The notes beneath the pieces are model-generated. The model worked only from the letters and a program-made list of their open reading frames with translations, was not told where the DNA came from and searched no databases. The position numbers were made by a program, and so were the translations under genes. Shown piece after piece: positions 4,970 through 8,387 of a stretch of DNA of 64,000 nt. Source of the DNA: Streptomyces cyaneochromogenes (lineage in GTDB: Bacteria; Actinomycetota; Actinomycetes; Streptomycetales; Streptomycetaceae); the NCBI RefSeq assembly GCF_003963535.1, contig NZ_CP034539.1:4464001-4528000 (forward strand). Direction: 5' to 3'. The number at the start of each line of letters is the position of its first letter. The first letter of the stretch is position 1.

Positions 4970-5611
4970 ATGGGTGGCGTGATGGGACACGCAGGGATGG
5001 CGGCCGCCGCCGTCCGCTACCTCAGGTCGGTCGAGGCAGCCCCCGAACGGGAGCCCGTGGAAGTGCTGCCGCGCCCTGATCTGCGGTGCGTCGGCGAGGA
5101 CGAGCGGGCGCCCGTCGGGCAGGCCGAGTTCCGGCGTGTGCTGGGGAACTTCGCGACGGGCGTCGCCGTTGTCACGGCACCGGCCCCCGCCGGTGCCCCC
5201 CACACCCCGGCCGGCTTCGCCTGCCAGTCCTTCTCCGCCCTCTCCCTCGACCCGCCCCTGGTCGCCTTCATGGTCGGCCGTACGTCGACGACCTGGCCGC
5301 GCATCGCGCGCGCGGGCGTCTTCTGCGTGAACGTCCTGAGTGCCGGCCAGGGCGAGCTGTGCCGTGGCTTCGCGGTGAGCGGCGCGGACAAGTTCGCGGG
5401 GGTGGCGTACGACGCGGCTCCCGCGTCCGGCTCCCCCCGCCTCGCGGGCACGCTCGCGTGGATCGACTGCACGATCCACGCGGTGCACACCGGGGGCGAC
5501 CATCTGATCGTGGTGGGCCGGGTGGACGCCCTGGGCGCGAGCGACGGGGACGAGGCACCGTTGCTGTTCCACAAGGGGCGGTTCCTCCAAGACGTCCCCG
5601 GGAGGGCTTGA
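4970..5611 (+). CDS. Flavin reductase family protein (FMN-binding split-barrel)
   Basis: About 213 residues. The core FRRVLGNFATGVAVVTA...GFACQSFSALSLDPPLVAFMV and the later GVFCVNVLSAGQGELCRGFA are diagnostic of HpaC-like flavin reductases, which use NAD(P)H to supply FMNH2 or FADH2 to a partner monooxygenase. ATG 4970 is chosen as the first start after the operator; ATG 4982 (preceded by GGGTGG) is an equally possible start. The shared operator links it with the acyl-CoA genes of this region, so a flavin-dependent oxygenase of the same pathway is likely encoded elsewhere. No partner oxygenase is seen in the window. Confidence 0.87.
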   Translation: MGGVMGHAGMAAAAVRYLRSVEAAPEREPVEVLPRPDLRCVGEDERAPVGQAEFRRVLGNFATGVAVVTAPAPAGAPHTPAGFACQSFSALSLDPPLVAFMVGRTSTTWPRIARAGVFCVNVLSAGQGELCRGFAVSGADKFAGVAYDAAPASGSPRLAGTLAWIDCTIHAVHTGGDHLIVVGRVDALGASDGDEAPLLFHKGRFLQDVPGRA

Positions 5612-5626
5612 CCGGGGCCACAGGAG

Positions 5627-6061
5627 TCAGGAGCGGCCACGGGCCTGCCGACGCCGTTCCTCCGCGTCTTCCTCGGCGCGCACCTGCCGACCGGCTCGAA
5701 GCAGCCCCACGGCGACGGAGACGGACAGCACCACGACCCCGATCCACACCCATGCGGGATCCGAGCCGTGGGCGATCCACGCGAGCAGCACCAGCACCAC
5801 CGCGGCCTGCGCGGTGCACTTGAGGGCGGACAGCGCACGGCTGGCGGGAGGGTACGTGGAGAACACCAGGAGGGCGCACGGGTAGGTCAGAGCGGTCACC
5901 ACGCATATGGCCTGCCAAGGCCAGTCACCGCTGTCGTACACCGTGTCCATCCGCAGCGCCACGGCGACCAGGTCCGCGGTCAGCAGCGCCCAGAACGCGA
6001 AGGCGCGCCACCTGATCGAGGAATCGGTCTCCCGGCCGGACTCGTCCCAGACCCTCGGCAT
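5627..6061 (-). CDS. Hypothetical small membrane protein
   Basis: A 144-residue protein starting MPRVWDESGRETDSS, with GGTGAGGTGG well placed before the ATG at 6061. Four hydrophobic segments are visible (about residues 20-38, 50-68, 83-98 and 104-122). They are followed by a charged cytoplasmic tail rich in Glu and Arg (RAEEDAEERRRQARG). No known family is recognised. It is convergent with the flavin reductase gene, 15 bases away. Confidence 0.7.
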   Translation of the reverse strand: MPRVWDESGRETDSSIRWRAFAFWALLTADLVAVALRMDTVYDSGDWPWQAICVVTALTYPCALLVFSTYPPASRALSALKCTAQAAVVLVLLAWIAHGSDPAWVWIGVVVLSVSVAVGLLRAGRQVRAEEDAEERRRQARGRS

Positions 6062-6202
6062 GCGACCACCTCACCCCACCCGCCGACAGAACCAATGCGT
6101 CGGCACCCGGCCGAACTCCCGTCCCGCACATGCTCGAACCGCCCTCACGGGAGGGGTCCCGGCACGGCCCCGTCACCAGGCGCACTGATACGCTCCCGGG
6201 CC

Positions 6203-6229
6203 ATGACGTACTTCTTCCCCCTCCGCTAG
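6203..6229 (+). CDS. Putative leader peptide MTYFFPLR
   Basis: An 8-residue ORF ending in -PLR-stop. It starts 9 bases after a possible -10 hexamer, so it may be translated from a leaderless transcript. Short leader peptides, some ending in related Arg/Leu/Pro motifs, precede antibiotic-inducible ribosome-protection or rRNA-methyltransferase genes, and the gene downstream here is a predicted RNA methyltransferase. The ORF is too short to be supported by coding statistics, so chance occurrence is possible. Confidence 0.35.
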   Translation: MTYFFPLR

Positions 6230-6272
6230 CCGCTCCGTCGGCAGGACGCGGATCAACCCGGCGCCGATGATG

Positions 6273-6295
6273 CGGGACGGTCGTCCACCGTCCCG
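6273..6295 (+). other. Hairpin between the two leader ORFs
   Basis: CGGGACGG (6273-6280) pairs with CCGTCCCG (6288-6295) across a 7-base loop. It lies between the 8-codon ORF and the ribosome site of the 19-codon ORF, where an attenuator stem would be expected. No U-run follows, so a translational rather than a transcriptional effect is more likely if it acts at all. Confidence 0.45.
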
Positions 6296-6322
6296 GGCTG
6301 CGACGTGGGAGAAGACAGGATC

Positions 6323-6382
6323 ATGCGCACACGGCGCGTGTTCGTTCAGCACCCCCGTCCCGGCACGCCGACCGTCTCGTGA
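6323..6382 (+). CDS. Putative 19-residue coupling peptide
   Basis: ATG at 6323 follows GGGAGAAGACAGGATC, a usable ribosome site. The 19 codons read MRTRRVFVQHPRPGTPTVS and stop at TGA 6380-6382, overlapping the GTG start of the methyltransferase as GTGA. The methyltransferase GTG itself has no ribosome site, so translation of this small ORF may deliver ribosomes to it. Peptide function is unlikely. Confidence 0.45.
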   Translation: MRTRRVFVQHPRPGTPTVS

Positions 6383-7533
6383 CGGCGGCGCGCCTGGTGG
6401 CGCGGTGCGTACGCGGGCTGGAGCCCGCACTCGGCACGGAAATACTGCGGACAGGGTCCGCGACCGTCGACTGGATCGGCCACCGCGAGGTGGGCTTCCG
6501 GACGGGGAACAGAATCGGGACCGGAACCGGGACCGGGACCGGCGACGACGGCCGTGACAGCCGCGGCGACGCCGTACGGCTACGGACCGCCGACGACGTC
6601 TTCCTCCTGGCCCGCCGCCAAGCCGACGTCGGTCCGCACAAGGGCGACCTGGTCGCCCTGGCCGAACTGGCCCGTGCCGTCGACCTGGAGGGCCTGGCAC
6701 GGGAACGGCGGGCACACGGCGGTCCGGCGGCCGGGTTCGGCGGGATCGAGATCTCGGCGTCCTTCCTGGGGCGGCGAACGTACAACCGCTACGACATCGA
6801 GGACGCCGTCGGCCAGGTGCTCGCCGCGCGCGCCGGTGTGCCGTACCACGCGCGCCGGCACGGCGAGCCCGCGCCGCCCGGCCACAGTGGGTGGCGGCTG
6901 ACCATGGACGGCACCCACGCCACCCTGCTGCTGCGGCTGGGGCGGCGCCCGGCACACCGGCGCGCCTACAAGAACACGACCGTTCCGGGCACGCTGCACC
7001 CGCCGGTCGCCGCCGCCATGGCCCAGGCCGCCGAACTGCGTCCGGGCCAGCGGGTGCTGGATCCGTGCTGTGGCGCGGGGACGCTGCTCATAGAGGCCCA
7101 CCACATGGTGCCGGGCACCACACTGCTCGGGTTCGATCTCGATCCGGCCGCGCGCCGGGCGGCGCGGCGGAACGCCGGGCCGCTCCCGGTCGCCGTCGAG
7201 CACGGCGACGCCGGCTCCCTCCCTGTCGCCGACCGCAGCATCGACCGCGTCCTGTGCAACCCGCCCTGGGGAGAACAGGTCGACGCGGGCGGACGTCTCG
7301 CCGGGCACCCGGAGCGCTGGTGGCGCGAACTCGCCCGTGTCCTCACCGACGAGGGGCGCGCGATCGTACTGCTGCCCGAGGCAAGCGGCCTGGGCCACGC
7401 CCTGACGCTCGGCCTGACCCCCGTCCACGTACAGCAACTGAGCCTGTTCGGCAGCCGCCCGCTGCTGGTCCGTCTCGAACGCCAACGCGACCGGCGGCGT
7501 TCTCGAGCCCGGCAGAAAGCGGAGGTGGGTTAG
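6379..7533 (+). CDS. THUMP-type RNA methyltransferase (TrmN/Trm11/RlmL-like)
   Basis: A 384-residue SAM-dependent methyltransferase. The N-terminal half (LVARCVRGLEPALGTEIL, then a Gly/Thr-rich repeat near residues 46-54 and a THUMP-like region) leads to the catalytic Rossmann domain. SAM motif I is LDPCCGAGTLLIEA near residue 235 and the target-base motif is NPPWGEQ near residue 294, which is typical of N2-guanine methyltransferases acting on tRNA or 23S rRNA. GTG 6379 overlaps the stop of a 19-codon upstream ORF, so expression is probably translationally coupled and may be regulated through the leader. The Gly-Thr run comes from a GGGACC repeat in the DNA. Substrate RNA is not determinable from sequence. 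Confidence 0.85.
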   Translation: MTAARLVARCVRGLEPALGTEILRTGSATVDWIGHREVGFRTGNRIGTGTGTGTGDDGRDSRGDAVRLRTADDVFLLARRQADVGPHKGDLVALAELARAVDLEGLARERRAHGGPAAGFGGIEISASFLGRRTYNRYDIEDAVGQVLAARAGVPYHARRHGEPAPPGHSGWRLTMDGTHATLLLRLGRRPAHRRAYKNTTVPGTLHPPVAAAMAQAAELRPGQRVLDPCCGAGTLLIEAHHMVPGTTLLGFDLDPAARRAARRNAGPLPVAVEHGDAGSLPVADRSIDRVLCNPPWGEQVDAGGRLAGHPERWWRELARVLTDEGRAIVLLPEASGLGHALTLGLTPVHVQQLSLFGSRPLLVRLERQRDRRRSRARQKAEVG

Positions 7534-7742
7534 CGCGTCCTTTTCGGGTCACCTCGCAGCCGGATGAGGACGGCTGCTAGGGATGGCGTTCGTGCGTCGG
7601 CGAGCGTTCGTCCCTGATGCCTGTGCGGCGTTCACCGGTTGTCGCGCACTGGGCCGTCCGGCAACCGGGCCCCGCCCCAGGGCCGTTCGGCCCGTGAGAG
7701 CCTTTCGTTGATCGTGATCGGTGTCGAGCCCGGAGAACGCGC

Positions 7743-8387
7743 GTGACCATCAACAGGCCGGGGCTGCCCGGGGATCTGCCGTCGGCGGAGGTGCTGTGGG
7801 CGCGCTGGGCGCTCATCGCCGTGCTGGAGGCCACCACGGCCGACGAGGAGGCAGGCCCTCATCGCACGGGAACCTGGGTGGACGACGGGGGGCTCCATCT
7901 GGACGACGCCGGCTGCACGTGGTGGGGCTTCGCACAGCGGGGCGAGGGGCGCTACGTGCTCTTCGGCGAGGACGAGTCCAGCGGCGCCAAGTGGCACAAG
8001 CCGCCGGTCGACATGCTCGCCGGCGCCCCCGACTGGCTCCCCCACGAGGAGTTGCGGGACCTGCTGAAGGGCTGGCAACTGGGCTGTGTCTACTGGTACG
8101 AGAAAGGCACCTGGGCCCGGGCCCCGTACCCGGCGACCCTGGACGACGACGGGCTCGACTGCGGTATGAGCCGCTTCGTCGACAGGAAGGAGGTGCTGTG
8201 GACGGTCGGCGACGAGGACCACGGCGCCCTGCCGGACCACGACGCCGAGACACTGCTGGGCCACGCCGAGGGCTACCGGCTGACGCCGGACCTCCTGATG
8301 TCCCTCGTCACTGAGCCCGACTGGCGGGAACTGGACCGGCCCGCCATGACCAGGGCACTGGAACGCGTGGGCCTGAACCGGGCGTAG
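7743..8387 (+). CDS. Hypothetical protein
   Basis: A 214-residue acidic soluble protein, rich in Trp and Asp, with GTG start at 7743 and GGAGAACGC just before it. It reads MTINRPGLPGDLPSAEVLW and continues through HLDDAGCTWWGFAQRGEGRYVLFGEDES. No signal peptide, membrane segment or catalytic motif is apparent. I do not recognise the family. It stands alone between the methyltransferase gene and a convergent TetR gene, so context gives no role. Confidence 0.72.
   Translation: MTINRPGLPGDLPSAEVLWARWALIAVLEATTADEEAGPHRTGTWVDDGGLHLDDAGCTWWGFAQRGEGRYVLFGEDESSGAKWHKPPVDMLAGAPDWLPHEELRDLLKGWQLGCVYWYEKGTWARAPYPATLDDDGLDCGMSRFVDRKEVLWTVGDEDHGALPDHDAETLLGHAEGYRLTPDLLMSLVTEPDWRELDRPAMTRALERVGLNRA

Follow-up and report, generated by a model that had tools for sequence, protein, structure and literature searches.

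How is a methyltransferase gene translated when its start codon lacks a ribosome-binding site of its own, and why is it preceded by two very short open reading frames (ORFs)? This question is raised by a locus of Streptomyces cyaneochromogenes that lies in the window, i.e. the whole stretch of 64,000 nt that was analysed. Sequence comparison and predicted structures indicate that the locus is likely to work as a translational attenuator, inducible by an antibiotic, in front of the gene for an EmtA-like 23S rRNA methyltransferase, which probably serves protection against orthosomycins (evernimicin/avilamycin type). A sequence-only reading had proposed an 8-codon ORF ending in -PLR-stop, a hairpin, and a 19-codon ORF overlapping the GTG of the methyltransferase gene, and all three were recovered exactly where they had been placed. 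The features of the locus are as follows.

6186..6194, + strand: probable extended −10 box TGaTACGCT, which ends 8 nt upstream of the leader start codon
6203..6229, + strand: leader ORF MTYFFPLR-stop (ATG ACG TAC TTC TTC CCC CTC CGC TAG)
6212..6218, + strand: 5′ arm of helix P0, UUCUUCC, equivalent to leader codons 4-6, the anti-Shine-Dalgarno predicted with RNAalifold
6225..6227, + strand: inner segment of P0, GCU from the Arg and stop codons, pairing with 6296-6298 (99.0% paired, one-sided changes)
6236..6242, + strand: 5′ arm of helix P1, CGUCGGC, pairing with 6263-6269
6263..6269, + strand: 3′ arm of P1, GCCGAUG, pairing with 6236-6242
6273..6295, + strand: hairpin P2, with arms at 6273-6281 and 6287-6295, i.e. 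the hairpin of the sequence-only reading
6305..6314, + strand: Shine-Dalgarno (SD) motif of the second ORF, GUGGGAGAAG, of which 6307-6313 form the 3′ arm of P0
6323..6382, + strand: second ORF of 19 codons (MRTRRVFVQHPRPGTPTVS), the TGA of which overlaps the methyltransferase GTG at 6379
6367..6389, + strand: hairpin P4 around the methyltransferase start, core 6372-6376 with 6381-6385, the start codon spanning loop and stem
6379..7533, + strand: gene for an EmtA-like, THUMP-type S-adenosylmethionine-dependent RNA methyltransferase, 384 codons

The two arms of P2, CGGGACGGU (6273-6281) and ACCGUCCCG (6287-6295), are perfectly complementary and GC-rich. The purine-rich SD motif GTGGGAGAAG at 6305-6314 is situated 8 nt upstream of the ATG of the second ORF. 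No purine-rich SD motif directly precedes the methyltransferase GTG, in line with the earlier claim that this start has no ribosome site of its own. The motif ATG/GTG-(0-7 codons)-FF-X-LR-stop has a single occurrence on both strands of the 64-kb window, which is above chance. The region 6200-6420 has a folding z value of −3.15, and 1 of 200 dinucleotide shuffles was equally stable. Against Rfam, positions 5000-8000 gave just two matches, with E values of 1.4 and 1.5 and with scores well under the gathering thresholds.

Is the leader conserved? A leader of the FFxLR-stop type followed by the same downstream RNA was collected at 35 loci (individual loci are cited by L numbers, genomes by G numbers). 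The first harvest consisted of 31 loci, from which the partial matches L010 and L011 and the duplicates L016 and L018 were left out, and the leader was present at 20 of 27 methyltransferase loci. The second harvest yielded it at 12 of 20 loci, two of the 12 duplicating earlier loci, and strict motif matches added five further leader loci. L034, L035, L042, and L047 were also removed as duplicates; duplicates were recognised by the length of the contig or by position. The alignment, termed A1, comprises 33 loci; L030, whose 3′ part has diverged, and L032, where the methyltransferase is broken, were dropped, and the later-found L078 is not included.

The peptides include MTYFFPLR, MTYFFHLR, MTTYFFPLR, MYFFHLR, MFFFHLR, MTFFHLR, and MTFFFLR, as well as the longer variants MKFTSFFHLR, VTFTFFFHLR, and MQGTQFFFPLR. 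The final residues of the 33 aligned leaders are F (32), F (32), a variable position (H 19, P 9, F 4, R 1), L (32), and R (32), and exceptions to FFxLR are FFHLS (L051), FFFRR (L060), CFLR (L017), and FSFHLR (L054). The third positions of the Leu and Arg codons are variable, and the stop codon is TAG in 24, TGA in 7, and TAA in 2 loci. Counted from the nearest start, the leaders have 6-11 codons and differ by whole codons only, while the frame and the stop position are kept. Length changes by whole codons, a kept frame and stop position, and a varying stop codon are the pattern expected of a translated peptide.

The element is also specific for this gene. A covariance model of the RNA gave 15 matches at E 0.01 in 394 genomes of the class. 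All 12 matches with at least 41 bits lie upstream of an EmtA-like methyltransferase gene; the three matches with <31 bits do not precede such a gene and look like chance. The strict DNA pattern TTCTTCC[A/C]CCTnCGYTAR has 16 matches among 392 Streptomyces genomes, and all 16 precede this methyltransferase (one broken). Nine of them are loci that were already known; of the seven further matches, five stand before a methyltransferase of full length, L033 before a copy altered near the C-terminus, and L032 (G047) before a truncated copy. A looser leader pattern has 73 matches in 66 of the 392 genomes; only the 16 strict matches were used, because the backward control of the loose pattern was also positive in many genomes, and the other 57 were not inspected.

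Two of the loci deserve a description of their own. At L032 (1474-1970), an intact leader and attenuator precede a methyltransferase frame that is broken after 124 codons, and P2 is mismatched, as if decaying. At L078 (G644), a methyltransferase with 38% identity is preceded by the degenerate leader MFTTFFRVG-stop and the same RNA plan (41.6 bits). The combination of a diverged FFRVG leader with the same RNA plan suggests that Leu-Arg may not be essential.

What does the leader do on the RNA? RNAalifold predicted for the 33 sequences a three-way junction of P0, P1, and P2, in which 99.2% of 960 cells are paired. The values for the individual helices are 99.1% for the outer P0 helix (UUCUUCC with the SD bases GGGAGAA), 99.6% for P1, and 99.3% for P2. 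Changes on both sides of a pair occur at five of the nine pairs of P2 and at one pair of P1, and at none of P0. The number of cells with two-sided changes is 26, compared with 7.9 in shuffles and ≤2 in slid versions. The SD motif, G[U/C]GG[G/A]AGA, is present in all 33 aligned loci. For an alignment-free comparison, arms were swapped between loci. With the stop and linker as one arm and the 10 nt preceding the SD as the other, native combinations had −7.11 kcal/mol and permuted ones −5.41 kcal/mol, a native value that none of the 5000 permutations reached (22 distinct pairs, relatedness not removed). The values for the whole arms were −19.82 and −18.82 kcal/mol, respectively (p 0.0028; 26 distinct pairs, relatedness not removed). 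The FF[H/P] codons of the leader are predicted to serve as the anti-SD of the downstream ORF and to close the three-way junction.

The predicted behaviour of this fold is that of a switch. The SD bases pair with the leader/stop region with a mean probability of 0.88 over the 33 loci, and the SD is predicted to be hidden in all of them (unpaired probability ≤0.31 in the free RNA). In the free RNA, the SD bases have a mean unpaired probability of 0.11; this value is 0.49-0.66 when the leader is masked, i.e. when pairing of the first 12-30 nt is prevented to imitate cover by a ribosome. Replacement of the leader codons by random 15 nt opened the SD in all 12 tested loci, barely so in L020 (0.04 to 0.09).

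The start of the transcript can be predicted from the same comparison. In 29 of 33 loci, a TANNNT box is located 6-9 nt upstream of the first leader codon (window tested: 5-9 nt; this set includes L032 and excludes L030 and L054), and the background rate at 5-9 nt is 0.48% of 13,211 positions. The remaining four loci (L005, L021, L033, and L051) have an in-frame ATG nearer to the box. A consensus scan for promoters of the TTGACA/TATAAT type found none; the −10 box came from the comparison of the loci. The conserved box at this distance from the start codon suggests that transcription very likely begins at the leader AUG or directly upstream of it, and that the mRNA from which the leader is read is probably leaderless. 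For mycobacteria, such transcripts are described as common (PMC4633059). A gene for a 144-aa protein (5627-6061, − strand) is divergent from the leader promoter; this protein has no Pfam match and a single NCBIfam match, far under the cut-off.

How does the freed SD lead to translation of the methyltransferase? The layout with two ORFs is found in 16 of 34 loci, including this one, with a second ORF of 19 codons in 15 loci and 17 codons in one, and the overlap of stop and start is ATGA or GTGA in all 16. In the other 18 loci, one of which is the broken copy L032, the methyltransferase begins directly at an ATG or TTG linked to the SD. The comparison of the loci indicates that members of the family can do without the second stage. 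In two-ORF loci, the 26 nt surrounding the methyltransferase start fold with −8.8 to −17.2 kcal/mol (mean −15.2), and P4 of this locus has −17.2 kcal/mol. The background is −7.5 kcal/mol (sd 3.45; 4640 windows of the same coding regions), and the start regions of the 18 one-ORF loci have −0.1 to −5.5 kcal/mol. In 14 of the 16 two-ORF loci, ≤7% of the background windows fold as stably. The core stem of P4 has a probability of about 1 in 14 of 16 loci, while the hairpins of L051 and L058 are shifted, and L020 has a compensated base pair in the start hairpin. A start codon within P4 would be accessible mainly to ribosomes arriving through the second ORF.

The number of changes between the one-ORF and the two-ORF state on the tree is 6-7, of which 4-5 are forced by starred branches, suggesting that the second lock was gained and lost in evolution. 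The constant length of the second ORF, 19 codons in 15 of 16 loci, and its conserved [P/L]-R-P motif would be compatible with a role of this ORF as a sensor or timing device of its own. The start hairpin would then be opened only by ribosomes that get through the second peptide in the presence of drug, which would confine synthesis of the enzyme to a narrow drug range, the lock being gained and lost repeatedly as a tuning element; we regard this as improbable. An ordinary conserved protein was also considered as the product of the second ORF, and this is a weak candidate given its faint coding signature.

These results bear on three further proposals of the sequence-only reading. Conservation in relatives, the absence of which it had named as refuting, is found for the leader peptide, the stop position, and the RNA fold, and in about half of the loci for the second ORF. 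Its idea of two stages agrees with the predicted folds, which hide the SD at 6305-6314 behind the leader codons and then the methyltransferase start in a hairpin. The likeness to antibiotic-sensing translational attenuators is supported by the conserved leader together with these folds.

Which enzyme is controlled? Pfam contains a UPF0020 (RlmKL-like) methyltransferase domain match, and the Pfam THUMP model is not listed for the enzyme at E 0.01. The AlphaFold model (pLDDT 86.2, pTM 0.86) has TrmN (3tma) as best PDB match in a Foldseek search (E 1.6e-26, TMq 0.71, 377 columns), and Trm14 (3tm5) matches over nearly the full length (TMq 0.72). The label "THUMP-type", which had been assigned from the sequence, holds for the predicted structure: the model resembles TrmN and Trm14 over its full length and has a Rossmann methyltransferase fold. 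NPPW is invariant in 20 aligned methyltransferase proteins. The best NCBIfam match is NF033398 (EmtA) with 85.6 bits, compared with a cut-off of 625, and EmtA is the best named family for all six proteins scanned (the enzyme and five relatives). EmtA is thus a relationship of the enzyme, not a membership. A tandem repeat at 6512-6542 (unit CGGGAC, 4.5 copies) encodes GTGTGTG within the gene, at the place where the model has its only segment of low confidence (residues 46-65); the L037 protein has a longer repeat of the LAE type.

The occurrence of the enzyme is patchy. Among 199 Streptomyces genomes there are 11 matches at E 1e-20, nine of which have 1.2e-97 or better (including the genome itself) and two of which are weak and partial; such patchiness is what a resistance gene would be expected to show. 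Scanning of genome contigs yielded 20 loci, among them loci of Actinomadura, Saccharopolyspora, Nocardia, Actinocrispum, and Micromonospora. At E 1e-12, the EmtA model has matches at 19 places in 18 of the 394 class genomes, some of which are only distantly similar methyltransferases.

A further link to orthosomycins comes from relatives without the leader. In a tree of 46 rows (midpoint root), 10 no-leader relatives form one group (98/99) and 32 leader-bearing rows another (100/99), while the placement of L030, L060, and L078 is unsettled. The no-leader relative of Micromonospora sp. ATCC 39149 is encoded 14 kb from an evdO2 gene, near genes for a polyketide synthase (PKS), KASIII, and a halogenase, and the oxygenase matches EvdO2 (PDB 4xab) with E 3e-122. 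In Catenuloplanes japonicus, the distance to an EvdO2 gene with 78% identity is 27.4 kb (L024; G764 contig 1, 580938-610080), and this region is a possible orthosomycin cluster. An EvdO2 query at E 1e-20 had matches in none of 24 leader-bearing genomes searched, and the positive control G763 was found. Orthosomycin production by the leader-bearing genomes is accordingly not supported. The simplest reading is that producers keep the gene without leader control and that non-producers keep it silent and inducible.

The results suggest the following model of a drug-inducible attenuator. The transcript would begin at or just before the leader AUG, the FF[H/P] codons would pair with the SD of the next ORF, and two conserved hairpins would complete the junction that hides the SD. 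Without drug, ribosomes would complete the eight codons and leave, the junction would re-form, and the enzyme would not be made. With drug, a ribosome would stall within FF-x-LR and cover the anti-SD, and the freed SD would allow translation of the second ORF. The ribosome on the second ORF would then open the start hairpin and restart at the overlapping GTG. Methylated ribosomes would no longer stall, and the switch would close.

Several observations weigh against this model. The codon:SD helix of P0 has changes on one side only, and FF[H/P] practically dictates the anti-SD, so that the constraints on peptide and RNA are inseparable by comparison alone; the pairing also survives synonymous recoding of the leader codons. 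Masking opens the SD poorly in several loci: in L020, it has 0.01-0.02 with 12 or 18 nt masked and 0.41 at maximum, in L005, L022, and L058 it opens only to 0.22-0.42, and in L002 and L023 it falls to about 0.2-0.3 under some masks. The coding signature of the second ORF is weak (position differences 672/552/782, compared with 597/508/959 in the enzyme), and the start hairpin is unexceptional in L046 and L058 (28% and 32% of the background windows are as strong). The enzyme remains below the 625 bits of the EmtA equivalog, which none of the 394 class genomes exceeds, and it is 27% identical to E. faecium EmtA across 77% of its length; given this distance, we infer both the methylated base and the drug. 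The region upstream of E. faecium emtA (L059) contains no leader of the FFxLR type. Lastly, evdO2 is absent from the vicinity of the gene in eight of the 10 no-leader genomes (G620, one of the eight, encodes a homologue with 36% identity on a different contig), and the producer/non-producer reading leaves these eight unexplained.

The same switch could respond to another signal, i.e. a different ribosome-targeting drug or a general slowing of elongation. A score of the enzyme below the EmtA cut-off would be compatible with this, as would the Arg-Leu-Arg arrest motif known for macrolides (ErmDL; PMC13410324). In contrast, all six proteins scanned have EmtA as their best named family, and relatives lie near evdO2 genes in two genomes; we consider another signal somewhat unlikely. 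The finding that P2 is the most covarying helix could also point to transcription attenuation, with P2 as a terminator and stalling allowing the antiterminator CCCG (6257-6260) with CGGG (6273-6276), a competing pairing for the 5′ arm of P2 that can be drawn by eye. However, P2 is not followed by a U-run, positions 6050-6450 contain no terminator-like site, and the pairing of the SD predicted in all 33 loci is unneeded for transcription attenuation, all of which makes this explanation very unlikely.

Two explanations do without an antibiotic. The leader contains two to three Phe codons and one Arg codon, and the enzyme shares its fold with TrmN and Trm14, so that the leader might gauge charged tRNA-Phe or tRNA-Arg upstream of a housekeeping tRNA/rRNA methyltransferase. 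This is hard to reconcile with the patchy occurrence of the methyltransferase, the tolerance of H, P, F, or R between FF and LR, and the location of two relatives in or near biosynthetic clusters, and none of five neighbourhood proteins scanned (the enzyme and four others) matches an amino-acid pathway family; its probability appears minimal. Alternatively, the RNA fold might be bound by a protein or another ligand and the short ORF be incidental, which would fit the very high conservation with invariant bases also outside the helices. However, the frame and the place of the stop are constant although TAG, TGA, and TAA are all used, the third positions of Leu and Arg vary, and the spacing of the −10 box is tied to the leader start codon, and we give hardly any credence to this possibility.

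Orthosomycins find use in animals and were at one time tried in humans. If the attenuator model is true, soil actinomycetes without an evdO2-type orthosomycin gene would carry an inducible, normally silent gene for resistance to this class. The sensor would consist of only about 6-11 codons on a leaderless mRNA, doubling as anti-SD, and would be a compact natural biosensor for ribosome drugs. Natural variation within the family, with H, P, F, or R preceding Leu-Arg and with either one lock or two, would allow direct tests of the rules that govern orthosomycin-dependent stalling and translational coupling.

How does this element compare with known systems? Evernimicin is reported by Mangano et al. 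(2022, Nat Chem Biol 18:1277) to stall ribosomes in a sequence-dependent manner. In several bacteria, this reportedly happens also within a regulatory ORF that precedes a gene for orthosomycin resistance. That ORF and the present leader may belong to the same family; the leaderless start, the codon:SD junction, and the second lock are putative additional parts that we describe from sequence. In the literature listings searched for leader peptides, orthosomycin leaders, and leaderless Streptomyces attenuators, no description of the element was found, and we do not claim its absence from print. The best named family of the enzyme is EmtA, the 23S rRNA (guanine 2470) methyltransferase of Enterococcus (NF033398; L059). 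Upstream of E. faecium emtA (L059, 2620-2820), an inverted repeat is visible by eye, as is a hairpin with a run of T behind it, and a terminator scan was negative; this is possibly another attenuator.

The closest parallels are ermC/ermB and cat-86, in which a short leader peptide and a drug-stalled ribosome likewise release the hidden SD of a resistance gene. In cat-86, leader codons also pair with the SD. Of the properties of ermC/cat-type attenuators, the conserved short upstream leader ORF is present here, and the hiding and freeing of the SD are seen in silico, poorly in several loci. Two small ORFs are also used in ErmB, with two leader peptides. In contrast, the second small ORF of the present element terminates on the start codon and, as far as one can tell, resembles a coupling ORF rather than a second sensor; in addition, the enzyme and probably the drug are different, and the leader is probably on a leaderless mRNA. 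The LEU element of actinobacterial leuA is similar in that a run of leader codons pairs with a downstream SD and forms the basal stem (PMC1262725). It differs in having leucine codons, a pseudoknot, and a biosynthetic gene, whereas the element described here combines FFxLR, a predicted three-way junction, and a resistance-type methyltransferase.
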